This document shows, piece by piece, positions 2,946-45,900 of a DNA stretch of 64,000 nt. The DNA is from Allodiplogaster sudhausi. Lineage: Eukaryota; Nematoda; Chromadorea; Rhabditida; Diplogasteridae. The position numbers and the translations under genes are program-made. The DNA lies in NCBI GenBank assembly GCA_945643635.1, contig CALZFC010000044.1:1696001-1760000 (forward strand), given 5' to 3'. The notes under the pieces are model-generated. The model searched no databases, was not told the origin of the DNA, and saw nothing but the letters and a program-made list of their open reading frames with translations. How positions within the stretch are numbered: the stretch's first letter is position 1; each line of letters opens with the position of its first letter.

Positions 2946-3306
2946 AAGGAGTTCCCCCTGTGAAGTCTCTTCCCCCTCTCCCCCTCTCGCTTTCTCAGAT
3001 CCCCTGTCTTTGTTGTTATGTACAGTTCCGGCCTCAAACTCGCACGCATCCCACCTTTTTTCGTTCTCCGTTCATTTTTTCAGTTTGTCACTAACCTTTG
3101 AGCATGCCCTGGCGACTCTTTTTCGATACAGGGCACGGAAAACACATATCTTATTCTTCTCGACGAGCCCTACAAATGGGCCGTATTTTAGGTTTTTCTA
3201 AGCTTTTACGTTTTAGGTACGCTACCGTATTCTGTTGAATATTTTTAATCATAACTTTGTTGAATGGTTGATTTTTTTCCCATAATCTATATGCCATTCG
3301 ATAGCT
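2946..3306 (+). other. Presumed 3' UTR of the PUF gene
   Basis: Non-coding sequence after the TGA at 2943-2945, CT-rich at first and then AT-rich. No clear AATAAA was singled out. The segment runs to the edge of the inverted-repeat element at 3307. Confidence 0.4.
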
Positions 3307-5752
3307 CGTTTAAAGGGCTTCAATTGTCATATAGAGACCGATTTGGTGAAAATTGATTTTCTTCCCAAAATAGGCCCGAACATTATGAAAGTCAAAATTC
3401 TCATGTTATAGTCATTTGCTCAAAATGGGATATGGATATTCGGAAGGTACGTGAAACTTTCAAAACCATTCAAGGTTACTATTTTTTGCTACAAAGCTCG
3501 AAACTCTTTAATTGGCAAAGTGCCAATCAAAGTGTTGTTTCGACTCATAATTTGGTTCGTTGTGAACTATTTCAGAAAAGAGCACATAAATCGAAACGGT
3601 TTTTGAATGTGCTTCAATCTCTATCTTGTGAAATTTCGTTTCTCCTTTTTTTGCTTTAATAGTTCGATTAAGAGCATTTTTGAGTTTCAAAAAATACATG
3701 TTTCGGCCAAATTTTAAGTAAGCCATTCATTAGCCCAAAAGACATAGTTGTCGTGAATGCATCTTAAATTTGCTACAAAATGACATCCTTAAAACGAAAA
3801 TCAAGGGTAGCTACTTTTCGTTACGACTAAAATGCGATCCATACAAGCGCTAGCTTGCTATGTATATACACCAATTCATCTCTTTCCCCGCAAATGCTCA
3901 CCATGTAAATTTGAATATTCGAATGTCGGAGGAGAAAAAAAGTATTCTTGTTGAGGAACGTCTCTTCATTTTTTATGGGACAGAATTGTTATTCGTTGAC
4001 TTTGGTTTTAGGTTTTCAGTCCTTTGTTATTGTATGAGTGTATGTGTGAAGAAATGCATAAATGAGCCCAAAAGACCCATGCGCGTTTATTTATGTCGAG
4101 AACAAGAGAAATGAAGAGGGCAGGAACGGTACCCCTAGCCGGACTAATCTAACGGACCCATGGGCTGGTGGGTATACTCTTGACACCGTGGATCACAGCA
4201 CCTATCTAAGCCAGTTTAAGAGAAAGTCGAAAGGGAGTTAAGGGAGACCCAGAGGGGGACCACTTTCGGGATTGAGTCAATATTCGTCTATTCTAGCATA
4301 TCGCTTACTTTGTCCCAGGCTATCAGGGCATCACTTACACCAAATCCCTTTTGATACATCTTGACCATTGGTCCGTAAGTCGCGCGTGGAGTGCATGCGC
4401 TGGCAAAATACAAGTACGACATCCCAGAATTCGAGCTTACTGAGTAGGTAACATTGTTAAACTGCAAACAAGTACAAAACAAACATGAAGTCGAAGCCTA
4501 CCGATCGTAACGAACGAAAGAACAGAGCTAAGATTATCAGTCAACTGGAAGAAGGGCACGCATTGATTACCTTGGATTACGCCGTGAAGATGCTGCCGGC
4601 GTTAGCAAGAGATAAATCTTCGGACCTTTATGGTAAACGCGACATGTCGTGTCATGTGAGTGACACGCTCGCCAGAACGAACGGAGACCGGTCTAAACTT
4701 GCTGACAAAACGAATACAACGATCATCTTTGGAGATAGCGGCAGAAAACGTCATCGTCATTCGACAATCGGAACTGGAAAAGAGAATGTATTCCTCCTTG
4801 AAACGGAACCATGCGGAATTTCTGGAATTATCGTGTGGATGCGCTCCGCAATCTGTTAAAGACCGGTGTCGCCCAGCGCGTCCCCAGGATCATGGAACCA
4901 AGGACGTTTCGGACGATTCGGACGCTTCCAAAGGGATCCTCGTTAATAATTATTTACCTAGGAAAGAGTAAAATATTTTAAACGGTACATCGTCCTAAGC
5001 GGCTCTGGTACCAAGATCCTAGCGGCTCGGCTCGGGCCCGGCGCTACCGAATGTCTGCATTCGAATTCGTTATTTTCTAGCCCTTCAAACCTAATGAAAC
5101 TTTGAAACCCAACAAAAGTTCCTCTTCCGACATTCGATTATTGCAATTCACATGTTGAACATTTGCGGGGAAAGTTGTGAATTGGTGTATATATATATAT
5201 ATAGCAAGCTGTTTCTTTTATGGATCGCATTTCACGTCGTTGACAAATAGCTACCCTTAATTTACGTTTTAAGAATGTTTATTTAGTTGCAAATTTAACA
5301 TGCTTTCACGGCAACCACGTCTCTCTTGTGCAGGTGAATGGTTTGCTTTAAATTTGGCTGAAACGTTTATTTTTTTTAAATAAAAATCAACAATGAGCTT
5401 ACACTATTAAAAAACAGAGAAAAGAAATTTCACTAGATGCAGATTGAAGCACTTTTAAAAACGTGTGTGCTCTTTTCTGAAATTGATCACCAATGAAACA
5501 AATTATGAGTCGAAAGAACACTGACAGCATGGGGCTAAAAAGAGTTTCGCGCTTTGTAACAAACAATTTGTTACCTCTAATGTTTTTGAAAGTGCTTTGT
5601 CTTACGTAAAATTTCCGAATATCTATACCTCACTTTGCGCAAATCACTGTAACATAATATTTTTTACTTTCAAAATGTTCGGGGCCTATTTCGGGACCAA
5701 AATAATTTTTCGCGAAATCGGTCGCTATACAACAATCGAAGCCCTTTAAACG
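3307..5752. mobile_element. Decayed DNA transposon with ~600 bp inverted ends
   Basis: The left arm (about 3307-3905) and right arm (about 5157-5752) are diverged reverse complements. The left edge begins CGTTTAAAGGGCTTCAATTG and the right edge ends in its imperfect inverse, GAAGCCCTTTAAACG. Internal pairs include the AATGCTCACC / AACATTTGCGGGG region beside a TATA run and the two 'gatcgcatt' blocks near 3834 and 5223. The ~1.25 kb centre is less AT-rich and holds a reading frame related to a repetitive transposon-type protein (4485 onward). Arms differ by many substitutions and indels, so the copy is old. No target-site duplication could be defined. It lies between the PUF gene and the next gene. 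Confidence 0.7.
4485..4859 (+). pseudogene. Fragment of a repetitive transposon-associated protein
   Basis: The first ~55 residues (SKLEEG-like ISQLEEGHALITLDYAVKML, then LYGKRDMSCHV) resemble a protein family seen in many copies in invertebrate genomes, in which a segment of the form 'LEEG-ALITMDWAMKFLP' precedes 'FFGKRGLSWH'. That likeness is from memory of the family, not a search. After about residue 60 the frame loses resemblance and a second frame (4660-4971) stays open, suggesting frameshifts. It sits between the inverted arms of the element, as a transposase would. It is probably inactive. Confidence 0.45.
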
Positions 5753-8700
5753 TGCATGGAATGGTACATAGAATAAAAAAATACCCAAACTTATGATTAA
5801 AAGTGATTAATAAGATTTCTGTAGCGTAACTCGAACATACTATTTTAGAAAAACCTTTCCATGCCGGTATCGAAAGAGTGTCCCCAGGGCACACTTGTAC
5901 TGGCCCTGCTCACTCCTTACATAAAGGCTGTCTTATACACATTTTCCACTCTGCTCACAGACCTGTCCTAGGCGTCGAGGAACTTTTTTTCATGAAATAG
6001 ATTTTTTCTTTTTCTTATTTCTTGCTTAGCCTCTCAGCTATTGTATCGTTTTATTAATTTTTGTGCGGCTTGAGTTTGGAGCGAGAAAGACATGCCTTTT
6101 TTTAATCACTGCCGACGAGCAGTGAGGCGCCATATAGTTATTCTCATCATTAATCACCTGTTTTGTAGTGAATGCACAGAAAATAGAGCGTTTTTCGGTA
6201 TAGCCGGACTGAAAGATGAAGACAGTCTTTTGAAGTTATAAGCTCATTTTTCTTTCCCATCATATTGTAAATTTTTGTTATCTTATGGCTGACAGTATAT
6301 TTCTTTCTCTACGATTAGTGAGTAGCCTGAGACGTTAAGTTTGTTCTCTCTCTCTCTATCTCTCTTTCTTTCTTTCTCTTTCTCTTCTTCTCTTTTCTAT
6401 CTCTCTGCATTCTCTCGCGAGAAATTCGTCGTATTCAGTTATTATATCTTTTTTCGCTGCCTACGTTGAATCCCGTGAAGTTGTGTAAGTCGTGCACTTG
6501 AAACTTTTGACCCTATTTCTTTTGTCAGTTTGAGTGACTTTCTCGAGCCTCTGTTCCTCTCACTGTCCGACGCTCTCTGCTGTGAGTCTCCTTGATGTAG
6601 TCTACGACATCGACAATGAGTCCAGGTCCTCCTCCTTCTCCCACTCCACGGGACACCATCCAATCTTTCCTGCAAACTAATGTTGTCCAAGACCCTCCCC
6701 TCTTCTCCACCTCTCACCCTTACTTCCTACATTTTAGCTGTGAAAGGCGAGATTCGTTATTGTTACTGTACAGCTCGACCCAACACGCGTATATACATAG
6801 TCCTTTTACACTCACTTGCTCTGTTACAAACACTACCGTAATCCGTGTACAGTACCTTAACTCAGCCTGGACTCTTGTTGCCCGACATTGTAAGACATTT
6901 GCTTGCGTTTCCCCGCAGATGCTCCCATCCCTCCATTTTCCCTTGCACTCGGTTCACCTTCTATATCTCTTGATTTTATTCAGTAACATTTTTGCTGTTT
7001 GGACATTTGATCAGTCAAAAACATTTCGACTCGAATATGATAATTCTTTTTTACTTCTTTTCATTATTTTGATATTTCTTCCCTCCTCTCCTCAACTTCA
7101 CTGCCAATACCCCACAGAGGATTCGGATGCTGTGAAGGAAGTCCTCAAACTCAGATTTTTTCCTTTCTCAATTTTTCTTGCTCCTAGCACGATTTATTCG
7201 TGGTCGTACCATACGGCACTTGATTATATTGCATGTTTGAATGTTGCTCTCTTTGCTTCCACTATTGGAGATGGTTGTAGTGAGGAGGCGAGATGCGAAG
7301 AAGATGAGAATTTTGGGGGAAGATTATAACTAGACAAAGTTGTTCCATTCTTATCTCAGACATTGTTATTCCATTCTGTCTCCAGAGCACAGCTCCTCGT
7401 TCCAGTCTTGTTCATCATAATTGTTAAGACTTGTTGTACAATTCCCCCAAAAGCCTATTGCATGCATTTTTTTTTGTTATTCTTACTTACTTGCCCAATG
7501 CGTTGTTTCCTCCTCTATTCCTATTTTCACACCACCGCGCACAAAAGATACGAATCAGGGGCTTCTAACTCTCTCACATATGTATATTATTCTTTTCTTC
7601 TCTCTTTATCTCAGTTTTGTTGACTCGAAAACAAATGTAAAAAGGCATGTAAGTACAAATTGTTTTCTGTAAATTTACGGTGTTAATGTATAGGCACGTT
7701 GTTTTGTACAGTGAAATCTTAGTGTTTAGTTTTAAAAAAAACTGGAATTTTATTGACGCGGTGATATGATGGAAACCATGCATGACTGGATGTGTTGGCT
7801 GACTGTGGATATATTTTGGAAATCTGCCCCTGAACCGTCTCTTCGACTTCGCTCTCCCACATTCTCGTACTCTCTCGCTCCCTCCATCTCCCTGTTGCCT
7901 GTTAATCTGCTGATATTTCGCTGTCTTGCGTATATTTACGAATGTGACATTTTTCCCGCTCTCATGGTTTTATGTAAACAGATGCGCTTTTATGCAAATG
8001 CTGACATGCTAGAAGAAGGGTATAAAACGCTGAAAATGCGAATTGGCATCTTCTACAGTATACGGAAATGTCAGACTGTAACGAGTTGGATGAAGTCTTC
8101 TCGAATGATGTATCTGAACCGATGATGGGCATGATGAAATGTGGGCGGGCAGGGAAGCAGCGATAGTGACTCGCAGGGGTGCATTGGCCGTGTGGTGGTG
8201 CCAACGCTGTTATGCCATGATATCGTCGTTGCTCACACGATCTCTACCTCTGCAAATGCAATGCAGAGCAATCATTCCCGATGGAATGGCCCGACCCGCA
8301 TTTACGAACGTTTTTCGTCATAAAATCCTATTATTATTCGTCATATTCGGCTAGATGGTCTAAATAGCCCAAATCATCCAAATACCACGGAGATTCGACT
8401 AGTATAAATGCCCGTGGGCCTGCGCTAGCTTATATATTTTAGCAATCAGTTGAAAGTGCGCTACGGCATCATGTCCCACTAAAAGACTGTTCATTCGTTT
8501 AGGTTGTGCTGACACGATTTCTCTTCTTGGAAAATTGTTAACTATATTTTATATACATAGCTTATCTACTTACCGTTGCCTGATCACGGGGTTTCAGTAA
8601 TGCATTAGCGCTCACTCGATTTTCGCTGAATCGTGGAACGGAAAAAATATTAGCAACAACCCCTAGTTCGGGAGATCAGCATTACCATGCCAGGCCAAAA

Positions 8701-19047: not shown

Positions 19048-19811
19048 GCCACTGAAAAAAGATACCAGAAGCTAAAATATAAAGAAATAATAACACTTTT
19101 TAAAAAGATATACATTATTATTTTATCGTGCATGAAATTACATATTGAAAATGGACAAACGTGGCACAAGGAGTTGAAACGACGCAAGGAAGGGCTCAAG
19201 GAATGGCGAATTGAGGATCGATTGCAATCCTAGATGGATGAATTATAAATTGCACCAGGCAGATGTGACTTATAAGATAATTCAGCGATGTACCACTGTT
19301 GCATCCAAAGTACTTAAATTGCCCATTTAAATCATATTTCTTAAACTACATATTCACATTTTAAATAATTTTATCGCTAATTAATCAAAATAATCGCACT
19401 ATTTTCTTGGCATATTTGTGGGGCAAAACGAATCTGTGGTAAGTTTCTAATAAATTTATGCTCATTGAACAAGTGAGCAAAGAGAGAGGAGAAAGGTTAC
19501 AGAATAGAGCGAGAATGATATGAATGAATAAATGTGAGCAGAGAAGGGAGAAATAAGAATGAAATAAATTTACAACTGTAAATTTCTCTGTCTTCTCTAA
19601 CAAGGGAACCATCTGAAGATATGTTGGAAGATTTTGATCTCACCTGTCCAGATCGATTGGTACGGTCAAGAAATGATGTCAACTATTTTTACTTTTTCCT
19701 TAATGGCCTCCGGCGATTTTATATTAATTTTTAAAATTTGCATAAATCGCAGATGTGGGGTGCTGATCGTTGCTTTACCATTGTCAACGACCCGCTTGAG
19801 ATTTAAAATGT

Positions 19812-19885
19812 GACCAGCGTGGCGCAGTTAGTTGCGCGCTCGCCCGTTGTTTTGAGTGTCGCGGGTTCAAATCCAGTTTGGAGCA
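19812..19885 (+). repeat. tRNA-like segment, left arm of foldback
   Basis: Contains A-box-like TGGCGCAGTTAGTTGCGCGC and B-box-like GCGGGTTCAAATCC at tRNA spacing. The acceptor ends do not pair well. It is diverged from its partner in the right arm, mainly in the anticodon-arm region, so it is a tRNA-derived relic and not a predicted functional tRNA. Confidence 0.6.
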
Positions 19886-20147
19886 GATGTTTTGCTATTG
19901 TTTTGGATATTCAATTTTGGCAAAGTACATATGTACATAATTTTGGCAAAGTACATATGTACCCGCGAGAGCTTTGTGCGATGCTCTCACTGTGAGAAAA
20001 ATTTCTGCCTGAACTGCTTCGTCGTCGATTATCATATTTGCTAACTTCAAACATCCACCACCCCACTCCTTGCATTAGAATAAATTTTTTATATTTACTT
20101 TACCAAATTTGAGTATATTAAACTGCAGCAAAACATAAGCACCGGAA

Positions 20148-20213
20148 GGGATTCGAACCTGCGACAGTCAAAACTGTAGGCTAGCGCACTACTAACTGCG
20201 CCACGCTGGTCAC
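20148..20213 (-). repeat. tRNA-like segment, right arm of foldback
   Basis: On the minus strand it reads GTGGCGCAGTTAGTAGTGCG then GTCGCAGGTTCGAATCCC. By eye, about five of seven acceptor positions (ACCAGCG with CGGTGCT) can pair, better than its left partner, and the B box is standard. It is still most likely a tRNA-derived repeat, given its inverted twin. Confidence 0.6.
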
Positions 20214-20451
20214 ATTCCAAGATTCAATTCAGGCATTCATAATTGCAAAGCCATTAATTTCCATTATTTTATGCAATTTTTAAAAATTAATATAAAATCG
20301 CCGAAGGCCATTAAGGAAAAAGTAAAAATAATTGACATCATTTCTTGACCGTACTAATCGATCTGGACAGGTGAGATCAAAATCCTCCAACATATCTTCA
20401 GATGGTTCCCTTGTAAGTGCTCCGACCTACAGTCCGGTCAAGATACTCGTC

Positions 20452-29632: not shown

Positions 29633-31525
29633 CTACTTCTTGGGCTCATCTTTCTTCTCATTCTTCTTCTAAAAGTAATTAAAGAAATCTACGTAATTAT
29701 TCAAATTAAAAAAAAATGATTAAACCTTCTTTTTCTTGCTGCCCTTCTCGACGTCTGGCTGCGATTCCTTTTTCTCTTTCTTCGAGACTTTCTTCTCTTT
29801 CTTCGAGACTTTCTTCTCTTTCTTCGACTCCTTCGATTCGTTAGACTCCTTCGATTCCTTCTTCTCAGCCGTCGACCACTTTTTGTCTTTCTTTTCTTAA
29901 TTTTCCTCTTCCTTCTCTTCTTCCTTCTTCTCCTCTTTCTTCTCTTCCTTGTTCTCCTCTTTCTCCTTCTTTTCGCCCTCCTTTTCCTCCTTCTTTTCCT
30001 CTTCCTTCTTTCCCTCTTCCTTCTTTTCCTCATTCTCTGCCTGTTCTCCTCCCTTCGCGTCTGCCTTCTCTTCGTCTTTCTTTTCCTCCTAGAAAAAGCT
30101 TATTTAAATCTAGAAATTTTTCTGCCTAATCCAGTTTTTTTTCTATTTTACCTTTTTCATTATACATAAATGTAGTTATTAATTTCAATCAATTTCTACT
30201 TCTATTACGAAATAAAAAGTGGCAGACATCCAAGTGCCAACCTTTTTCTCATCATCTTTCTTCTCTTCCTTCTTTTCCTCCTTCTCTGCTTCCGCGAGCT
30301 GGAAATCGCAGGTCACACGCAGCACGCCAGTCGGCTTTTCTTCAGCAAACACCTGGAAGTGGCCGCTTTAATGAATCAATCAATCAAGAATCGGAATTCC
30401 CTTCTACTCAGAACTCTCTTATTTATCAGATAGTTTTCAGTTAGCTTTTCCTCAATATTCCAAGAAGAACCTGCTTGGCCGTCTTGCTCTCATCGTTGAC
30501 ATCGGCGTGGTAGAAGGCGAAGAAGTGCTTGTGAGCATCGGCCGGTGTCTCCTTCCCGGCAAAGTTCATCTTGATCGTTGCCTGTAATTATCTAATTTGT
30601 TTATCCTGCTTCACATTTTCATATGGTTACATATATTTGTTTTTTTTATATTTCATTATGCTAATTGTCACTTACCATTAGAAATGGTCATATGCATGCC
30701 ACCATTGTCTATCGTCATTTTTAACCTTTTCGCTAGGCGCAATCATTCCGACTGGTGGCTTCACGCGGAAGAGGTCGTTGTCGGTCACTTTGACCTGAAT
30801 TATTTGAATAAATTAGTCCCCGTTTTCTACGCATAAAATTCTATAAGTCTTGCCTACCCTTTCGCTCTCTCTCTCTTTCTCGCTCTCTCACCTTGAATGC
30901 GAGTTTCTTGGTAGTGTTGTTCGTGATAACCCTCTCGGTTGCAATCGGCGTTCCGATCTGCCCCTTGAAGACGACCTTTCCCTCGGGTTCGATCGGAAGC
31001 TGTAACCACTTGATGAAATTTAAACAAAAGAATTTCTCCAAAGGCTAAATAGGAATATCAAAGTACCATGCAATTTTCGTTGTTGTTTATTTTATTTTTA
31101 AAAGTGATTTTTATTTCATCAAATTAATATACCATAATATACATACGTATCATTCTAATTGTATTGCAATTGTTCCAAATTTCTCTCAAATCTTTTTTAA
31201 TTCTTATATCAAGTGCCTGGAATTCTGGCTCGCCCGGCTTCTTTATTTTCCAATCCTTCTTTCCATCCTTCCCCTTCTTTTCCTTTTTCTCCTCTTTCTT
31301 CTCCTCCTTCTTTCCTTCTTTCTTATCCTCCTTCTTCTCGTCCTTTTTTTCTTCCTTCTTCTCCTCCTTTTTTTCTTCCTTCTTCTCCTCCTTTGTTTCT
31401 TCATTCTTCTCCTCCTTTTTGTCTTCCTTTTTCTCCTCCTTTTTGTCTTCCTTTTTCTCCTCCTTTTTGTCTTCCTTTTTCTCCTCCTTTTTGTCCTCCT
31501 TCTTTTCGGCTTGAGGCTTCGCCAT
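29633..31525 (-). CDS. MSP-domain protein with long Lys/Glu-rich tails; in-frame TAA in the penultimate exon
   Basis: MSP domains are immunoglobulin-like folds. In nematodes they build the sperm cytoskeleton or act as VAP-like adaptors. Seven exons: 31525-31217, 30999-30892, 30794-30726, 30581-30471, 30352-30242, 30088-29726 and 29668-29633. Residues 1-103 are mostly K/E repeats (AEKKEDKKEEKKEDKKEEKK). Residues ~104-225 are the MSP domain: LPIEPEGKVVFKGQIGTPIA, VITNNTTKKLAFKV, DNDLFRVKPPVGMIAP and LRVTCDFQLAE. The tail is again K/E-rich. The first intron needs a GC donor (CAG|GCACTT). A TAA at 29899-29897 interrupts the tail after ~299 residues. The same frame nevertheless continues for 58 lysine-rich codons, splices, and ends with KKNEKKDEPKK and TAG, giving ~368 residues if read through. 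So the stop is a recent nonsense change or a sequence error, or the shorter form is real. The ATG follows TTTCAG by six bases. Confidence 0.85.
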
Positions 31526-31729
31526 TTTGTCCTGAAATTCAGAATGTTTGCATTATATACAACTTCGAATAGCAATACGACAGCTTCTGGTAAATATTAA
31601 GGAAACTTATTTAGAAGTTTCGAAAAGGAAAGAATCGAAGAACCGACCGACTTGGCGCTTTGAGGCAGATGAGAGTAGTGAAACGAGAAATGCCATCTCC
31701 TTTTCCCTTTTATACAATTTGCTGACGTG

Positions 31730-31843
31730 CTCATAAAGGTTAAATTCCCTTGAATATGCATTCAACTAAAATATCCTTCTATTCCTTTCTTAGTTGCGCA
31801 ACCTTAACGGTGATTTTCATTATGTGAATTTAACCTTTATGAG
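31730..31843. repeat. Small element with perfect 18-bp inverted ends
   Basis: CTCATAAAGGTTAAATTC at 31730-31747 is the exact reverse complement of 31826-31843. The 114-bp unit has no coding capacity. It lies between the MSP gene start and the left edge of the phosphatase duplication, only 20 bases from that breakpoint. Confidence 0.75.
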
Positions 31844-31863: not shown

Positions 31864-33679
31864 GCAAGATATCCTGAAGACGCTGTGGTGCGCGCGTGAT
31901 GTGCTGGAGAAGGAGAAGCAACTCGTGGAGATCCAGCCGCCCGTCGTGGTGGTCGGCGACATCCATGGCCAGGTCGGCGAAGGAAATACAGGAAATTGGG
32001 AAAAATTATTAATATCAAAGAACACAAGAATCAAAAATGCTTAGGACACGAAACTATCACGTATCACTTCCCATTTACAGTTCCAGGATCTCTGCCGCAT
32101 CTTCCACGAGCTCAGTGATAAGGAGAGCGGTCAAATGGCAAGATGCTCATTTTTAATTTTAATTTTTTTTTTTAAATTTAACACTCGCTAAATTTGTTTA
32201 AATTTCATTTAAATTTAAAATTACTAATTGTTTGTTTTGCAGGGCTACAAGTTCGTGTTCCTCGGCGACTACGTCGACCGTGGCCAGCAGTCCATCGAAT
32301 GCATCATGCTGCTCCTCTTGCTGAAGATCCTCTACTCGAGCAAGGTCGAGGAGCAAAGTCTCGCCTCGAATTGCACTTTCTCTATCCTGAGAATCCAGAA
32401 GGGCCAATGAATGTACTATTATCATGGCTTCACGGCATTTTCTGGAAAAAAAAATTAATATTTGGAATTCATTTGTTTCGCTGTTAGATGTACATATGTA
32501 CATATATCATTGCGCACGTTTTAGGCTGAGTGAATTTGCATATTTTAAGTATGCCTTTTTAATATGCAAATGTTTGAGATTTTGCTAAAAATTTTGTTGG
32601 TAAATCCAGGTGAAAAACTATAGTAATCCAGTTTTTTTCAGTTTATGCTCCTGCGTGGGAATCACGAGTCGCGCAACATCAACTACCACTACGGCTTCCA
32701 CGAAGAGATCACCGAGCGCTACCCGAAGGCGAGGGAAATGTTTTAATAGAGGCATTAATCTACACGATTTCAACGGCTATTTTTGTGAATTTATAGAAGT
32801 GAAATAAAGGAAATACAGCATTCAAATGTACCGTAATGCTAAGGGTGGACCCGGGATCTGGTTGCTCTTCAACGACGTCTTCAACCACCTGCCCGTGGCG
32901 TGCCTCATCAACGGAGAGATTCTCTGTATGCACGGGGGAATCTCGCCCCATCTCAAGAGCCTTGATGATATCAGAAATGTACCCTTCTGCCTTCTTCTTC
33001 ATTAGAATGCTCAAAGAAAGGAAGTGTTTCTGGGTGGAAAATCTTCTGAACTTTGTCTTCTTGAGCTTCCGAAGCCCCTTCCCGACCCTGTGAAGTCTCC
33101 GCTCGCGCTCGATCTCATGTGGGCCGACCCGGTGCTCGGGCTTCATGGGTTCGCTTTCAGTTGGCTATGAAAGTGGCAAAGTGAATTTTTCTAAAGTTAA
33201 AAAAAATGATATTAAATTTTGTTCAGCTTTGAGCCGAACGTCATTCGCGGCGTTTCCGTCAACTTTGGCGAAGACGCGACCCTCGCGACTTGCAAGCAAA
33301 TCGGCATCCGACTCATCATCCGATCTCATCAGGTGATCATGAACAAGAATGGGGATTACTCTTTCGTAATCTTGGCAAGGATTAAATAATTATAAATTAG
33401 GTTATCATGAAATTATTTCATCACTACCTAATATTGGCACGCATTAAAAAGTTGAAACGCCCAAACATCTTCGCGTGCAGATGATGCTAAACTGGTTCAA
33501 CTTCTTCTGCAACCGCCTCCTGCTCACCATCTTTAGCGCTCCCGACTACTTCGTCTCCAAGGTTTTTTTCTTATATTTTTTATCTCTTAAAAAAGCATTC
33601 GTCCGAAGAATCCTCCTGAAATCTTCAGAAGAACCGTGGCGCCGTCGTTATTATGAATGGCCAAATGGTACTGACATAA
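31864..33679 (+). pseudogene. Truncated PP1-like phosphatase, left copy
   Basis: It matches the right copy exon for exon: 31864-31972, 32081-32137, 32243-32344, 32642-32739, 32819-32978, 33075-33148, 33227-33365, 33481-33561, 33629-33679. Metal and phosphate motifs are present (GDIHGQ, GDYVDRG, RGNHES, HGGISP, RSHQ). The first two exons and the FPFTE start of the third are missing at the left breakpoint. The last ~46 residues are missing because the ~465-base deletion joins NRGAV to VIMNGQMVLT and a stop. All remaining exons are open, and the donor after GQM is GCAAGA, a normal GC-type donor. Without a start exon it is probably not made as a full enzyme. A fused or alternative transcript remains possible. 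Confidence 0.8.
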
Positions 33680-33689
33680 GCAACTTTAT

Positions 33690-34500
33690 GTAGTCTCTAG
33701 GCGCTGCAAGCGCTCTAGAAATTTTGAATAAAAGTTGGACATTGGAAATGTCTATATCTCGGCCCCTCGGGATCGAATAGACCCAGTCGATAGCTCATTC
33801 GACTCAGTTCGACATTTCATTAACTATACATAGAATGCATCATACCATGGAGCAAAAACTTACTGTTCCCTGGGGGAAAAACTGCCCAGGCCGAAACCCA
33901 AACAGCGTCAGTTTCGCTCTGACGCCAACCATGGAGTAGAAATTGTGGCGCCTAGAAAGTTCGCTGCCCTTCAAGGACACTGTAAGTTTCATGGTAGTTT
34001 TCACGTTTTCGGACCGTTGAAGTAATTTTTACGTGATTTTTTTTTTGTCATTTATTGGTTCTAACAATAAATGTGGTTTTATTAATGTACTAAAGAACAA
34101 TTTCGGTTCTTGTATACACACGTTAAACGTATTTTTGTCAATTACACGAAAACTACCATGAAACTTACAGTGTCCTTGAAGGGCAGCGAACTTTCTAGGC
34201 GCCACAATTTCTACTCCATGGTTGGCGTCAGAGCGAAACTGACGCTGTTTGGGTTTCGGCCTGAGCAGTTTTTCCCCCAGGGAACAGTAAGTTTTTGCTC
34301 CATGGTATGATGCATTCTATGTATAGTTAATGAAATGTCGAACTGAGTCGAATGAGCTATCGACTGGGTCTATTCGATCCCGAGGGGCCGAGATATAGAC
34401 ATTTCCAATGTCCAACTTTTATTCAAAATTTCTAGAGCGCTTGCAGCGCCTAGAGACTACATAAAGTTGCTTATGTCAGTACCATTTGGCCATTCATAAT
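33690..34500. repeat. Foldback core of the palindrome, a dispersed repeat
   Basis: Beyond the gene sequences, each arm continues with ~310 bases of non-coding repeat. Left: GTAGTCTCTAGGCGCTGCAA onward from ~33692. Right: its reverse complement ending near 34464. The blocks CGGCCCCTCGGGATCG and CTGCCCTTCAAGGACACTGT occur in both. A diverged relative lies alone at 38265-38420. This suggests an inverted-repeat element sat at the symmetry axis when the duplication arose. Confidence 0.65.
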
Positions 34501-34716
34501 AATACCTAGCCAAGTCCCAATTTTCTACTCTTTTCATTTCTTACTGTACAAAACCCGAAGATGTCTTTGCAATATTTGGCAATGATACAGCCTTTTTATG
34601 CTTTATTCGAGCTGATAAATTGTGTTTTCCATTGAGCTGAAGGCGTTTGTGGAGAAAAGGATGGCGAAGCGAAATAGAAAAGGGCTGATTGGTGGACGGG
34701 TGGGCGGAGCTTCCTC

Positions 34717-37229
34717 TTACGTTTCCTTCTTGCGGTGGATGCCGCCAAAGTCGTTGTCGATTGCCTCGTCGTGCTCGCCGCGAAAGAATTTTTCGCCTGA
34801 ACCAGTTTTTATTATTATTATTACATGATCTAATTTTTGCAATCAATCGATTATTCTTTTAAACAATTAATTATTTTAATTAATAATAAATAATGTATTA
34901 ATTACCCATCTCCGCTTCGGTCGGGACGAGGAAGTGCATTCCGATGTGGCCGCGCTCGTCGATGAGAGCGACGGCGCCACGGTTCTTCTGAAGATTTCAG
35001 GAGGATTCTTCGGACGAATGCTTTTTTAAGAGATAAAAAATATAAGAAAAAAAACCTTGGAGACGAAGTAGTCGGGAGCGCTGAAGATGGTGAGCACGAG
35101 GCGGTTGCAGAAGAAGTTGAACCCGTTTAGCATCATCTGCACACGAAGATGTTTGGGCGTTTCAACTTTTTAATGCGTGCCAATATTAGGTAGTGATGAA
35201 ATAATTTCATGATAACCTCATATATAATTATGGAATCCTTGCCAAGATTACGAAAGAGTAATCAGCATTCTTGTTCATGATCACCTGATGAGATCGGATG
35301 ATGAGTCGGATGCCGATTTGCTTGCAAGTCGCGAGGGTCGCGTCTTCGCCAAAGTTGACGGAAACGCCGCGAATGACGTTCGGCTCAAAGCTGAACAAAA
35401 TTTAATATCATTTTTTTTAACTTTAGAAAAATTCACTTTGCCACTTTCATAGCCAACTGAAAGCGAACCCATGAAGCCCGAGCACCGGGTCGGCCCACAT
35501 GAGATCGAGCGCGAGCGGAGACTTCACAGGGTCGGGAAGGGGCTTCGGAAGCTCAAGAAGACAAAGTTCAGAAGATTTTCCACCCAGAAACACTTCCTTT
35601 CTTTGAGCATTCTAATGAAGAAGAAGGCAGAAGGGTACATTTCTGATATCATCAAGGCTCTTGAGATGGGGCGAGATTCCCCCGTGCATACAGAGAATCT
35701 CTCCGTTGATGAGGCACGCCACGGGCAGGTGGTTGAAGACGTCGTTGAAGAGCAACCAGATCCCGGGTCCACCCTTAGCATTACGGTACATTTGAATGCT
35801 GTATTTCCTTTATTTCACTTCTATAAATTCACAAAAATAGCCGTTGAAATCGTGTAGATTAATGCCTCTATTAAAACATTTCCCTCGCCTTCGGGTAGCG
35901 CTCGGTGATCTCTTCGTGGAAGCCGTAGTGGTAGTTGATGTTGCGCGACTCGTGATTCCCACGCAGGAGCATAAACTGAAAAAAACTGGATTACTATAGT
36001 TTTTCACCTGGATTTAGGAACAAAATTTTTAGCAAAATCTCAAACATTTGCATATTAAAAACGCATACTTAAAATATGCAAATTCACTCATCGTCAGCCT
36101 AAAACGTGCGCAATGATATATGTACATATTTACATCTAACAGCGAAACAAATGAATTCCAAATATTAATTTTTTTTTCCAGAAAATACCGTGAAGCCATG
36201 ATAATAGTACATTCATTGGCCCTTCTGGATTCTCAGGATAGAGAAAGAAAAAATTCGAGGCGAGACTTTGCTCCTCGACCTTGCTCGAGTAGAGGATCTT
36301 CAGCAAGAGGAGCAGCATGATGCACTCGATGGACTGCTGGCCACGGTCGACGTAGTCGCCGAGGAACACGAACTTGTGCAGCGTGTAGCCCTGCAAAACA
36401 AACAATTAGTAATTTTAAATTTAAATGAAATTTAAACAAATTTAGCGAGTGTTAAATTTAAAAAAAAAAATTAAAATTAAAAATGAGCATCTTGTCATTT
36501 GACCGCTCTCCTTATCACTGAGCTCGTGGAAAATGCGGCAGAGATCCTGGAACTGTAAATGGGAAGTGATATATTTTCGTGTCCTAAGCATTTTTGATTC
36601 TTGTGTTCTTGGATATTAATAATTTTTCCCAATTTCCTGTATTTCCTTCGCCGACCTGGCCATGGATGTCGCCGACCACCACGACGGGCGGCTGGATCTC
36701 CACGAGTTGCTTCTCCTTCTCCAGCACATCACGCGCGCACCACAGCGTCTTCAGGATATCTTGCTCGGTAAACGGGAACTGAATGGGGCGCTTTGTTTTT
36801 ATGCAATATTTAACAACAATTTTATTTGTCTTGTTTGAAATTTTTTTTAAATTTCACTTGTTCGTTATTAAAATGCTTATATATGTACACAGATCAATTT
36901 CTCCACCACAATCTTTCGTCAGAATGCTTTGCAACACAATCAGATGCAGTTTAAATTCAATAATTGCTAAATCCATTCAATCTGACATAGCTGCCAAAGT
37001 ACTCCTTCTTCATGAGCTTGCGGATAATCTTGGCGATGCGCTTTTGATGCTTGGTCAAGATCTTGTTAGGGTCGTCGCTCTGATCTGGCTGCAAAAGTCT
37101 CGTTACTTTCTTAATTCTCAATTCTTTCCTATAGTCGCACCACGCTGTTAAATTGTTGTTCGAGCAAAGAAAGAATAGAAAGTGTTTGACCGCTTCGCTG
37201 GCGACCGTCTTAGTCTTGTCATCGGACAT
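34717..37229 (-). CDS. PP1-family Ser/Thr phosphatase catalytic subunit, full-length copy
   Basis: PPP enzymes dephosphorylate Ser/Thr with two metal ions. Nematodes have many diverged PP1-like genes, some sperm-enriched. Twelve exons keep phase and give ~381 residues: 37229-37191, 37088-36987, 36778-36656, 36552-36496, 36390-36280, 35975-35878, 35798-35639, 35542-35469, 35390-35252, 35136-35056, 34987-34906, 34796-34717. Motifs in order: GDIHGQ, GDYVDRG, RGNHES, HGGISP, IIRSHQ and SAPDYF, the last in place of the usual SAPNYC. Metal ligands therefore look intact. The C-terminus ([20 protein letters not shown]) differs from PP1. Three oddities: the donor after GQM reads ACAAGA where the left copy has [17 protein letters not shown] carries three extra residues against the left copy; and several donors are GTC-type (GTCAAA, GTCAGA, GTCGGC, GTCGAG). 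The start codon lies seven bases from a minisatellite. Confidence 0.88.
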
Positions 37230-37235
37230 CGTGAC

Positions 37236-37598
37236 GCAGAGGAGAAAGAAAGAGCAGGGAGAGTGGAGAGAGCAGAGGAGAAAGAAAGAGCAGGGAGAGT
37301 GGAGAGAGCAGAGGAGAAAGAAAGAGCAGGGAGAGTGGAGAGAGCAGAGGAGAAAGAAAGAGCAGGGAGAGTGGAGAGAGCAGAGGAGAAAGAAAGAGCA
37401 GGGAGAGTGGAGAGAGCAGAGGAGAAAGAAAGAGCAGGGAGAGTGGAGAGAGCAGAGGAGAAAGAAAGAGCAGGGAGAGTGGAGAGAGCAGAGGAGAAAG
37501 AAAGAGCAGGGAGAGTGGAGAGAGCAGAGGAGAAAGAAAGAGCAGGGAGAGTGGAGAGCAGAGGAGAAAGAAAGAGCAGGGAGAGTGGAGAGAGCAGA
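37236..37598. repeat. 36-bp minisatellite, ~10 copies
   Basis: Tandem near-identical units begin GCAGAGGAGAAAGAAAGAGC and continue AGGGAGAGTGGAGAGA. The penultimate unit lacks two bases. The array lies between the PP1-like start codon and its upstream region, so it occupies the promoter or 5' UTR of that minus-strand gene. The plus-strand frames across it (RRKKEQGEWREQ repeats) are taken as spurious. Confidence 0.93.
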
Positions 37599-38264: not shown

Positions 38265-38420
38265 GTTGAGCTAATTGTAAGTCGAATAAGCTATAGCAGA
38301 GTTCTGTACGGCCCTGGGGGCCGAGATACAGACCCTCTGAAAGACGCTAAGACAAACCGCGGACTTTCAAGCCTTCTAGAGTGCTCGTAGCGCCTAGAGA
38401 CCTTATATAGGCGTACCTTT
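38265..38420. repeat. Solo copy of the palindrome-core repeat
   Basis: Shares, in the same orientation as 34330-34500, the order 'gagctat', 'gtctat/gttctgtac', GGGGCCGAGATA, 'agac', 'ttctagag-gct', GCGCCTAGAGAC and a final 'ggtac'. Identity is moderate, indicating an older insertion of the same family. Confidence 0.55.
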
Positions 38421-39791: not shown

Positions 39792-40224
39792 GTGTTTCCC
39801 TCTCTCTGTGGAACAAGACAACAATACAATTATAGATAGCACACTGATTGAGCGATAGTGATCGCTCGATTCCTTATCGCCTACGCAACGTCAGCTTCCA
39901 AAGGCTTCTTCAGGTGCTTGAAAAGAGAAATGAGAGCAAGGAAATCGACTCCTTTACTCGCTTGCTTCTCTTTATGCGCGAGCTAAGAACTTCATCGATT
40001 TTTTCCCAAATCTAAAGTTTATTTCATTTATATTCAGGACAGCAAAGTAGTCCAATAATTTTCGCGACTAGAGCAGTGACTTTTGAAAATTATATTTTCC
40101 CGCTTTAATGGAGCATGAAATTCAATCGTAATTTTTTCGAATTTTTCTCTCTGAATAAAATGCTTTCTCGTCCTTGTGTCAGGGAAAAGGGCGCGAATTC
40201 AAATAAGGTTTTTGGCTCCTTTAA

Positions 40225-42894
40225 GAGAGCCTCTCTGTAAGACTCAAGGAGGCTTGTATAGGCTCCTGCCCTGAGGAATTTTTGTTTTCTTTTAATTTGA
40301 AAACTTTATGAGGGATGTATCCCTTGTTCATAACAAAGTCTACGCGGTCAGAAAGTTTAGAAAAATTTTTTTCCACTTAGATATAAGTCGTAATGTTCTT
40401 AAATTTAGGATGACCATATCTAACGTTATACTTAATATTTCTCAATATTCTTTTCAATGTTCGATTTCTTGTCGAAAACTACACAAAAAAGTCCCAGATG
40501 ACCATATTCGAAAAATTAAAATTTTTATAACTTTTGGTCAATTGAATTTTTTGAAATGTCGTTTTCAGGCAATAACTTTTTTTATTATTATGACTTGCAG
40601 AAAACTGAATTTTCCATAAGAAAGAGGGGAAAAAATTACACATAATATGTGTCTACGAGGAAAAATCTCCGATACCTTTTTTGGGTATCTGCATTTGAAT
40701 ATGGGTTTCTGAGCAAATTTCGGCTTTGGCTGCAAACCATAATTTCTTTCAAACTTCATCAATTTTAAAACCGAATAGTCCATTCGATGTAATTTTTTAT
40801 CCTCTTTAAAATAGTATGTACTTTGTTTGCAAAAGAAATTAGTCTAAAGGCCTAAAATTGACTTTTTGTGTTTTTGGCCAATTTCTGGTGTTAAAATACT
40901 CGTTCTTTGGACCATTAATGGGTCATATAGACCGACTTTCCTCATAATGTTTACTCTACAAGAAAGAGCAGTTAAAACTGAGTCGGATACAGCTTTTTCA
41001 TCAAAATCTGAGGATACTTTTTTTGGGAATACGTATTTGAATGCTGACTGCTGACGGCGATATTGCTGAATATTTTTTAGCAAATATTTAAAATTAGTTT
41101 TTTTGAAATATCTAACACCCAATAATCTGTATTCCCGAATTCTTTGCAGTTCTTTCATGATATACCACTCAAAAGTACTCAAAAAGCCAAGAAATTTCAT
41201 GTTTACAAGCCTAGATGGCGAAATAAATGTACGAAAACTCCTTCGGGGCCAACTATCAGGTCATTTGTGAGCCTGATTGCCAAAAAGGTCATAACCATTC
41301 GAAACAGCAGAGACTTTTACATAATATATCCACCGATGAAAGAGAATAACCTGTAGATGTTTCAGAAATCTTGAAATTTCGAAAAACAAATCGACTACAG
41401 GATTCGACTATTTTGAGCTGTTCTGCGAAAGCTGTTAAAAATGGAAACTATGTTCGGAAAACTCTACAATAATGTTTGTTGAGACGAGAAACATGAATTT
41501 GATGTTCATTTTCTACTTTTGAGTACCATCCATGGTACTTTTGCCAGAAGAATGAAATATAAAATGCAAAAAAAAAATTCATTTCGATCAAGCGTACCAT
41601 GGATGGTACTCAAAAGTAGAAAATGAACATCAAATTTATGTTTCTCGTCTCAACAAACATTATTGTAGAGTTTTCCGAACATAGTTTCCATTTTTAACAG
41701 CTTTCGCAGAACAGCTCAAAATAGTCGAATCCTGTAGTCGATTTTTTTTCGAAATTTCAAGATTTCTGAAACATATACAGGTTTTGCTCTTTCATCGGTG
41801 GATATATTATGTAAAAGTCTCTGCTCTTTCGAATGGTTATGACCTTTCTGGCAATCAGGCTCACAAATGACCTGATAGTTGGCTTCGAAGGAGTTTTCGT
41901 ACATTTATTTCGCCATCTTGGCTCGTAAAAATGAAATTTCTTGACATTTTGAGTACCTTTGAGTGATATATCATGGAAGACCTGCAAAGAATTCGGGAAT
42001 ACAGATTATTGGGTGTTAGATATTTCAAAAAAAAACTAATTTTAAATATTTGCTAAAAAATATTCAGCAATATCGCCGTCAGCAGTCAGCATTCAAATAC
42101 GTATTCCCAAAAATATTATAATCAGATTTTGATGAAAAAGCTGTATCCGACTCAGTTTTAACTGCTCTTTCTTGTAGAGTAAACATTATGAGGAAAGTCG
42201 GTCTATATGACCCATTAATGGTACAAAGAACGAGTATTTTAACACCAGAAATTGGCCAAAAACACAAAAAGTCAATTTTAGGCCTTTAAACTAATTTCTT
42301 TTGCAAACAAAGTATATAATATTTTAAAGAGGATAAAAAATTACATCGAATGGACTATTCGGTTTTAAAATTGATGAAGTTTGAAAGAAATTATGGTTTG
42401 CAGCCAAAGCCGAAATTTGCTCAGAAACCCATATTCAAATGCAGATACCCAAAAAAAGTATCGGAGATTTTTCCTCGTAGACACATATTATGTGTAATTT
42501 TTTCCCCTCTTTCTTATGGAAAATTCAGTTTTCTGCAAGTCATAATAATAAAAAAAGTTATTGCCTGAAAACGACATTTCAAAAAATTCAATTGACCAAA
42601 AGTTATAAAAATTTCAATTTTTCGAAAATGGTCATCTGGGACTTTTTTGTGTAGTTTTCGACAAGGAATCGAACATAGAAAAGAATATTGAGAAATATTA
42701 AGCATAACGTTAGATATGGTCATCCAAATTTTATGAACATTACGACTTATATCTAAGTGGAAAAAATTTTTCTAAACTTTCTGACCGCGTAGACTTCGTT
42801 ATGAACAAGGGATACATCTCTCATAAAGTTTACAACGCTATACTAAACAAAAATTCCTCGGGCAGGCGCCCTCGATCCTTACAGAGAGGCTCTC
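40225..42894. mobile_element. Long foldback element 1 with TTAA flanks
   Basis: Ends are GAGAGCCTCTCTGTAAG and its reverse complement, each directly flanked by TTAA (40221-40224 and 42895-42898). TTAA is the target used by piggyBac-type transposases. Nearly the whole 2.67 kb is an inverted repeat, left ~40225-41555 and right ~41590-42894, around a short centre near 41573 with ACCATGGATGGTACTC palindromes. Arms are highly similar but carry scattered substitutions. No transposase is encoded; both arms show the same short non-coding frames. Its right end is 12 bases before the start codon at 42911. Confidence 0.85.
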
Positions 42895-42910
42895 TTAAGC
42901 AGTCCTCAAG

Positions 42911-45900
42911 ATGCGCACCCTAATCGTGCTCGCGCTCGTTTCTGTGCTTCTTCTCGCGTCACTAGGCGCCGACGCCAAGAAAGTCAAGGGGTACTGTTAT
43001 TTAATTATTAATTACTAATTATTTAGTTATATTCAAAATTTGCTTAATAATTTGAAAACTCTTTATCAAAATTATTATCAAAAAAAGAGGAACAAAAGTA
43101 TTTTCATTTAAAAATACAGTCGTTTTAGTAAGCAGGAGAAGGCGCCGAAGAAGGGAGCCGAAGTGGCAGCTGAAAAGGGAGAGAGCGTGGCGGCGAAGGA
43201 GACGACGAAGAAGCAGACAAAGGGAAAGGGGGAGAAGGTCGTGGCGGAGAAGGCGGGCGCGAAGAAGCAAAAGGGTGCCAAGGGAAAGGCGGCGGTAGGA
43301 ATTCTATTTCATTTCTTTTAGTTAAAAAATTTTAGTTGTTTTTTCACAACGTTTAATTGTTGTTTGTTATCGTTCTTCAATTCAAGCGTTATCTCACCAA
43401 AGTGAACGCTTTTAAAAGGCTTGTTTTTTTCCTGGCATCTATATATTTTACGCATTGTCCGCATTGTTGTTTTCTTTAGAAGAAGCAGATAAAGAAGGAG
43501 AAGATCGAAGAGCCGGCTGTTGAGGAGGTCCGAATCGGTCTTTTTTTTATTTAATTGTTTTAAGAGAGCCTCTCTGTAAGGATCAAGCAGCCCTCAATGG
43601 GGGCCTGCCCCGGCGCAAAATTTTCCGATTCAGTTGTCCAAAATTTTATTAGGGGTACTCATACGCACTGTAAAGAATATTAGTAGATCAATTTTGTTAT
43701 AAAATTTTTTTCCTTGTCTAGGCATGCAAAAGTAAGGAAAAAGTATAATTCGCCATAAATTTCTTTAACATCAATATTTTTCAATTTTCTTTTTTTTATT
43801 GACATCTCCGTTGAATTCTAAACGAAAACTCTGTTGATGTATTTGATCAAATGTTATATTTTCATATCGAAAAATAATTTTAAATATTTCAATTTGACCG
43901 TTGAATACCTTATACTCAAAACTTTTTGGGTACTATATCTCAAATTGTAGAGCGTTAAAAACTGTATAACATTTCTTCTTTTCGTTTCATGTATCCTTCC
44001 CTAGAGGGGTTAAAAATAGGCTCAAATACGGGTACCTCGGCGACATCGGATTCAAGGAATGCGTGAAAAAAGGTTAAATAATTGTTTTAGCATAAAGTGA
44101 ACCACTTCATTCAATTCAGCGCGTTTTTATTGTCAGAAAGTTATATATCAAAATTCATTAAACTATCGCTTTCCACGAAGAAAACTCATTTTTCGATTTT
44201 GCTACCATGGAAAGAAAATGACCTAAACTATTCGAATCCCTATATTTTCGACAGATTCAAAGACTACAGAAGGTGAATAGTACTATTTTGTACGCGACAA
44301 AATTCTCTACAAAATCTCTCCTCATTTACATCTGGATAGGACGTCCCTACCAATGACTGTATCGATTTTCCCATGGCGGTCGCGTCAAAACTGACAGATC
44401 AGCATTTTACAAGTTTTCGTGCAATCTTAATGTTTCCTACTCATCCAATACACCATTCTGCTCCACGAAGCATCCTGAGGGCAGAACCGATGTTTATTTT
44501 GCAAATTTCCCGTGGTAAAAGCCCGCAAAAGGGTTTGCATGCGCGCGGAATTGAACCTGCGACCCATGATATCGACGTGCACAACCAATACGACAAAATT
44601 TCATTTAAAAATTCATTTCTCGAGACTGCTTGAACAAATTTTATAGGTTGAACTATCAATCGATAGCAATTTTTGCGCTCTATCGACATAAAAATATCCG
44701 CCAAAAAGTGTAAAATGATGGTAATACCGAATAAGACGCCAAAATATTCGAACACAAAAAAGTAAATCAAGCAATTTATTCATGAAGATGTGATGTATGG
44801 GAACATTGTTCGTATTCGCGAAAGCTATCTAATAGCATATGAAATGTGGTGATAGGTTGAATATGCGAGAAGTAGAGGCTGCGGAACTGGCCCCTTTTGC
44901 GGGCTTTTACCACGGGAAATTTGCAAAATAAACATCGGTTCTGCCTTCAGGATGCTTCGTGGAGCAGAATGGTGTATTGGATGAGTAGGAAACATTAAGA
45001 TTGCACGAAAAGTTGTAAAATGCTGATCTGTCAGTTTTGACGCGACCGCCATGAGAAAATCGATACAGTCATTGGTAGGGACGTCCTATCCAGATGTAAA
45101 TGAGGTATTTTGTAGATAATTTTGTCGCGTACAAAATAGTACTATTCACCTTCTGTAGTCTTTGCATCTGTCGAAAATATAGCGATTCGAATAGTTTTAG
45201 GTCATTTTCTTTCCATGATAGCAAAATCGAAAAATGAGTTTTTTTCGTGGAAAGCGATAGTTTAATGAATTTTGATATATAACTTTTCTGACAAGAAAAA
45301 CGCGCTGAATTGAATGAAGTGGTTCACTTTATGCTAAAACAATTATTTAACCTTTTTTTCACGCATTCCTTGAATCCGATGTCGCCGAGGTACCCGTATG
45401 TGAGCCTATTTTTAACCCCCCTAAGGAAGGATACATGAAACGAAAAGAAGATATGTTATACAGTTTTTAACGCTCTACAATTTGAGATATAGTACCCAAA
45501 AAGTTTTGAGTATAAGGTATTCAACGGTCAAATTGAAATATTTAAAATTATTTTTCGATATGAAAATATAACATTTGATCAAATACATCAACAGAGTTTT
45601 CGTTTATAATTCAACGTAGATGCCAATAAAAAAAAGACAATTGAAAACTATTGATTTTGAAGCGAGATACATCAAATCACAAATTATCCAAACATTTAAC
45701 TGTTCACGTAAGTATATTTTTTGAAAAAAAAATTTTTGCCATCTAATCTTGTTACTGGGGCCCAGTGCCATGTCCGGCAACGTTTTCGCTCTCGAAATCC
45801 AACATCTGGATCTGGGGCAGGCCCTACTGGAGGCATACGGAGAGGCTCTCTTAAATTAAATAAAAAAAACAACAAAGATTTTAAATATTTCTAACCTAAC

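Follow-up and report, generated by a model that had tools for sequence, protein, structure and literature searches.

The window, i.e., the whole 64,000-nucleotide stretch of Allodiplogaster sudhausi DNA analysed here (assembly GCA_945643635.1, contig CALZFC010000044.1, positions 1,696,001 to 1,760,000, forward strand), contains two long inverted arms around a short single-copy spacer, and each arm carries a copy of a PP1-like phosphatase gene. All positions below are those of the window. When the window was compared with itself by BLAST, the longest arm pieces matched with an E-value of 0.0, and chance is therefore excluded as the source of the arm similarity. The locus is best read as a young partial inverted duplication of an ordinary kind that adjoins an MSP-domain gene and probably originated through fold-back or template switching. 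It comprises the following features:

31864..34002, plus strand: left arm of the inverted repeat, 2,139 bases.
34003..34147, no strand: single-copy spacer between the arms, 145 bases.
34148..36764, minus strand: right arm of the inverted repeat, 2,617 bases.
34717..37229, minus strand: right copy, a predicted 12-exon PP1-like phosphatase gene encoding 361 amino acids, based on the exon model, the Pfam domain Metallophos and nematode homologues.
31864..33679, plus strand: left copy, which extends into the central palindrome as far as 33679.
34503..34968, minus strand: segment found in the right arm only, 466 bases, with most of exon 11, exon 12 and the AATAAA at 34607.
36490..36495, minus strand: intron start after right exon 4 in the exon model, ACAAGA, i.e., neither GT nor GC.
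32138..32143, plus strand: corresponding left-copy boundary after exon 4 in the exon model, GCAAGA.
36378..36386, minus strand: nine bases (three residues) of right exon 5 that are absent from the left copy, flanked by 3-base direct repeats.
33481..33561, plus strand: left exon 10, with Trp at 33493 and Leu at 33520.
32601..33351, plus strand: run of 751 bases (411 exonic, 340 intronic) identical between the copies, a likely conversion tract.
33648..34002, no strand: left half of the inner palindrome, with its mirror at 34148-34502 (1 substitution in 354 aligned bases).
33684..33804, no strand: stretch of the inner palindrome, with its mirror at 34346-34466, that resembles 38280-38410 (64% identity over 132 columns).

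The right gene runs from 37229 to 34717 and the left copy from 31864 to 33679. The two copies are thus arranged tail-to-tail, i.e., convergently, because the 3' ends of both face the centre. A preliminary description of this DNA had placed them head-to-head and facing outward, an arrangement that we reject given the strands of the exon model. Its centre of about 145 bases between two inverted arms, on the other hand, agrees to the base with the spacer. The gene-bearing parts of the arms (gene arms in the following) span 31864-33647 on the left and 34969-36764 on the right. The total arm lengths are unequal because the 466 bases of 34503-34968 are missing from the left arm.

Both copies match Pfam Metallophos (PF00149), the right one with an E-value of 1.4e-37 and the left one with 1.3e-38. 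Both predicted translations contain GDIHGQ, GDYVDRG, RGNHE, HGG and RSHQ; we take GDIHGQ, GDYVDRG, RGNHE, HGG and an Arg-x-His-Gln-type motif to be the metal-binding and catalytic motifs of the PPP family. A homologue search with the right protein found 2,606 sequences, from the best 120 of which ranks were taken. The top nine among the matches listed are Pristionchus proteins with 41-45% identity (44% for the best), and within the homologue alignment the right protein is 40-49% identical to its relatives. In a phmmer search of the right protein against the PDB, the top matches are FAP15 (1.9e-56) and an unnamed Ser/Thr phosphatase (3.2e-55). A PP1-alpha chain follows with 3.2e-52, PP2A is only slightly weaker (4.5e-49), and PP2B reaches about 1e-37 or weaker, except for one chain labelled Protein phosphatase 3 (1.5e-48).

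The 361-residue exon model replaces a first one of 388 amino acids, which carried insertions of 12 and 15 residues relative to the homologues and was revised given the alignment. In the refined model, exon 6 of both copies uses a GC donor (AAG/GCGAGG) and a CTAAG acceptor; a GT donor with a 12-residue insertion is a possible alternative. The boundary after exon 4 reads ATG/ACAAGA in the right copy and ATG/GCAAGA in the left. GC-AG introns are real but rare in nematodes, with a reported share of about 0.6-0.8% in C. elegans and in the re-annotated H. bacteriophora (PMC5906903), such that the GC donor of the left copy is plausible but uncommon. For right exon 4, no other in-frame donor was seen by eye, and skipping the exon would keep the frame at the cost of 19 residues. 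Judged by its sequence, the right copy may therefore not be intact, i.e., harm to the gene from the AC boundary is predicted. The right copy also encodes Val where the left copy (at 33520) and 14/14 aligned homologues have Leu. An AATAAA at 34607 lies 110 bases beyond the stop codon of the right gene and ahead of the inner palindrome. Male-germline expression of the right gene is likely by analogy, since metallophosphatases of sperm are reported to be expanded in Pristionchus and co-expressed with MSPs (PMC8480184).

The left copy is truncated at both ends, i.e., exons 1 and 2 are missing together with the first 14 bases of exon 3 at one end, and exon 12 together with most of exon 11 at the other. 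Its retained exons are open in the refined model. Upstream, a stop at 31811 closes its frame, and no ATG occurs in between. The residues lost by its 9-base in-frame gap are present in 14/14 aligned homologues, and its Trp at 33493 replaces a Gly shared by the right copy and again 14/14 homologues; by this comparison, both are derived states of the left copy. Two further candidates were discarded. A -1 frameshift of the left copy near 32371 turned out to be intronic once exon 5 ends at AAG/GTCGAG, and the final residues within the palindrome resemble a PP1 ending only slightly, with a DNA match at chance level by eye. A right copy with all exons and a left copy without both gene ends but with open retained exons had already been noted in the preliminary description. 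This part stands, while the completeness of the right copy has become doubtful due to the AC after exon 4. Conversely, the statement that each copy is damaged differently holds even more strongly, given that a defect is now seen at an expected donor of the supposedly complete copy.

The arms are nearly identical, introns included, as had been noted before. Over 1,776 aligned bases, the gene arms show 20 substitutions (about 1.1%) and, in addition, five indel or complex events; the inner arms show a single substitution in 354. The earlier proposal to assess intron divergence by self-alignment of the arms yields 15 changes in 1,005 intronic bases against 5 in 779 exonic ones, three of the latter being silent and two residue-changing. 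Differences of 9 and 6 bases are gaps in the left copy, each between 3-base direct repeats. For the distribution of differences, we collapsed the arm alignment by hand into 21 events, with adjacent substitutions merged into one, for which reason the shuffles below score the 751-base run as 752. An identical run of 751 bases was reached in only 0.02% of 200,000 shuffles of these events (P = 0.0002), for which reason gene conversion is its likely cause as judged from the alignment. Both the divergence and the run are in accordance with the recent origin and/or gene conversion suggested earlier. With a mutation rate of about 2e-9 per site and generation, a divergence of 1.1% would place the duplication a few million generations back, which is a floor if conversion is active. 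Conversion between adjacent inverted paralogues, introns included, is known in Caenorhabditis (PMC3966223).

Taken together, we assign a probability of roughly 0.72 to the following reading: a tail-to-tail, nearly identical inverted duplication of a PP1-like gene with a left copy cut at its ends, likely produced by one fold-back or template-switch event and likely homogenised in part by conversion, and with a left copy that is predicted to lack a working phosphatase. The copy was made at the DNA level because the inverted arms keep their introns around a short single-copy spacer, and the right copy is probably the source because it alone has the 5' and 3' exons common to the homologues. In human and yeast, fold-back duplications around a single-copy spacer have been described (PMC3907307, PMC10622511); here, too, inverted copies flank such a spacer (145 bases). 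Partial duplicates are reported to be common among young C. elegans duplicates (PMC3449122), and the left copy likewise represents part of one source gene with introns retained.

In the proposed course of events, DNA synthesis would have left the 3' end of the right gene leftward, read through the inner segment (355 bases) and the spacer (145 bases), and then jumped to the opposite strand, where it recopied the inner segment and the gene back to exon 3. The new copy would then have been rejoined to the former downstream sequence next to the MSP-domain gene. Within or after this event, a 466-base deletion would have taken the gene's 3' end off the new arm. Later, the left arm would have gained its small deletions and the Gly-to-Trp change, one splice donor as well as one conserved residue would have changed in the right copy, and the central tract would have been kept identical through conversion. 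For the left copy, most likely no role follows, i.e., it is a young, decaying partial duplicate.

Several observations weigh against parts of this scenario. We infer the order and polarity of the rearrangement, no microhomology is found at the 466-base join, and the human fold-back spacers reported in PMC3907307 (766-70,466 bases) are longer than the 145 bases observed here. With regard to conversion, three pairs of adjacent substitutions (P = 0.001) show that mutations also occurred in clusters, such that the clustering attributed to conversion may in part have this cause, and Caenorhabditis conversion tracts are described as mostly 50-200 bases long, with a range up to 2,958 (PMC3966223). 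Finally, neither the higher similarity of the inner arms compared with the gene arms (P = 0.23) nor the lower divergence of the exons compared with the introns (P = 0.11) is significant, for which reason no separate age of the centre and no selection on the exons is shown.

Among the alternatives, the one that fares best, though still improbable, regards the centre (33648-34502) as a mobile element of palindromic structure that either caused the duplication or came after it, by insertion or by aberrant transposition. Two further large palindromic elements with GAGAGCC(TCTC) ends and TTAA flanks are found in the window (40221-42898 and 43560-45854), a dispersed repeat makes up part of the centre, and the left copy ceases to be homologous to the gene where the central palindrome begins on its side. 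On the other hand, the centre has no BLAST match to either of these elements, and the 466-base deletion explains the homology edge equally well. The dispersed part, about 130 bases, is single and non-palindromic at 38280-38410. Within the 64-kb window, this partial relative is the only one, and no second palindromic copy of the centre is present. By eye, no target-site duplication of the centre is seen beyond a possible TA. We therefore consider it less likely that the centre stems from a mobile element than that fold-back or template switching was at work.

An assembly artefact, i.e., two haplotypes or loci mis-joined at the palindrome such that the inverted pair would not be real as drawn, is quite unlikely: palindromes are hard to assemble and a divergence of about 1% may also occur between alleles, but 20 substitutions, five indel or complex events, the 466-base stretch and different outer flanks are unlike a simple fold-back read artefact.

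A hairpin-RNA function is possible, too, but we consider it a long shot. Here, read-through of the right gene would yield a folded RNA of both arms and, from it, small interfering RNAs that act in the male germ line to silence the gene or its paralogues. As the copies are convergent, the promoter of the right gene alone could transcribe both arms, whose long complementary sequences provide about 2.1 kb of near-perfect pairing. The gene family, likely of sperm type, adjoins an MSP-domain gene, and a precedent is described for flies, where the testis hairpin RNA loci Nmy and Tmy silence Dox genes (PMC10292708). However, the hairpin transcript would need read-through since a poly(A) signal of the right gene, the AATAAA past its stop, precedes the palindrome, and three more follow on the same strand at 34423, 34083 and 34056 before the left copy. 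Furthermore, the left arm lacks the first exons of the gene. An inverted repeat alone says little, because C. elegans transcripts often contain one; for expressed genes, a share of about 25% with such a repeat in an intron of more than 1 kb is reported (PMC4282642). A literature search for nematode long-hairpin or palindrome loci gave nothing on topic by title and abstract, and one for Pristionchus no title on such a locus among the matches listed; Rfam at the gathering threshold (0 hits) and ARAGORN (0 tRNAs) were negative for the window. The boldest version of the hairpin reading, a newborn self-targeting hairpin gene whose double-stranded RNA of about 2 kb silences the sperm-type phosphatase and its paralogues while conversion keeps the pairing as both copies lose coding capacity, is just as improbable.

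The surroundings of the duplication hold further features. The MSP-domain gene that adjoins the left copy lies on the minus strand at about 30480-31530 (Pfam E-value 1.5e-20), with a repetitive, lysine/glutamate-rich N-terminal part. Together with the phosphatase homologues, its MSP domain points to a probable nematode. A short element with 18-base inverted ends (31730-31843) lies some 20 bases beyond the outer end of the left arm. On the other side, a 36-base tandem repeat of about ten copies with 98% matching occupies 37236-37598 and reaches to seven bases upstream of the start codon predicted for the right gene. By eye, the palindromic element at 43560-45854 is located between exons of a lysine/glutamate-rich gene (about 42.9-46.4 kb). 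Inverted arms at 3190-3934 and 5122-5856 share 74% identity over 774 columns and enclose an open frame (4461-4859) without Pfam match; the whole, 3190-5856, may be an old element that carries long terminal inverted repeats. Another inverted repeat is present at 19597-20417 (about 80% identity over 336 columns).

Read as a fold-back or template-switch duplication, the locus offers a clean example of the birth and decay of inverted partial duplicates in a sperm-type phosphatase family, with likely conversion between convergent copies that have both changed, at different places. The duplication is relevant to gene silencing only if both copies enter one RNA. If the convergent pair were transcribed through, it would provide a natural test for gene-derived hairpin RNAs in the nematode male germ line, as in flies, and in the self-targeting case a nematode hairpin RNA locus would have been caught being born from a sperm gene.

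Compared with known systems, the locus shares with the young nematode partial duplicates described in PMC3449122 the DNA-level copy of part of a gene, the kept introns and the longer source, while the two copies here converge in inverted orientation on a short palindromic centre, with a polarity that we infer. The fold-back inverted duplications of PMC3907307 and PMC10622511 likewise show two inverted copies and a short single-copy spacer. The event studied here, in contrast, is of kilobase size, interstitial and rejoined to its old flank rather than of chromosome-arm scale, and its spacer is shorter than in the human cases (PMC3907307). The resemblance to Drosophila Nmy/Tmy as reported in PMC10292708 concerns the silencing reading only, i.e., an RNA hairpin aimed at a male-germline gene family; here, the source gene would itself be one arm. 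Finally, the sperm PP1 phosphatases GSP-3/GSP-4 of C. elegans represent a PP1-like family, shared by the predicted gene here, that has expanded in Pristionchus and is expressed together with MSPs (PMC11269235, PMC8480184); the gene differs in being just 40-49% identical to its aligned relatives.

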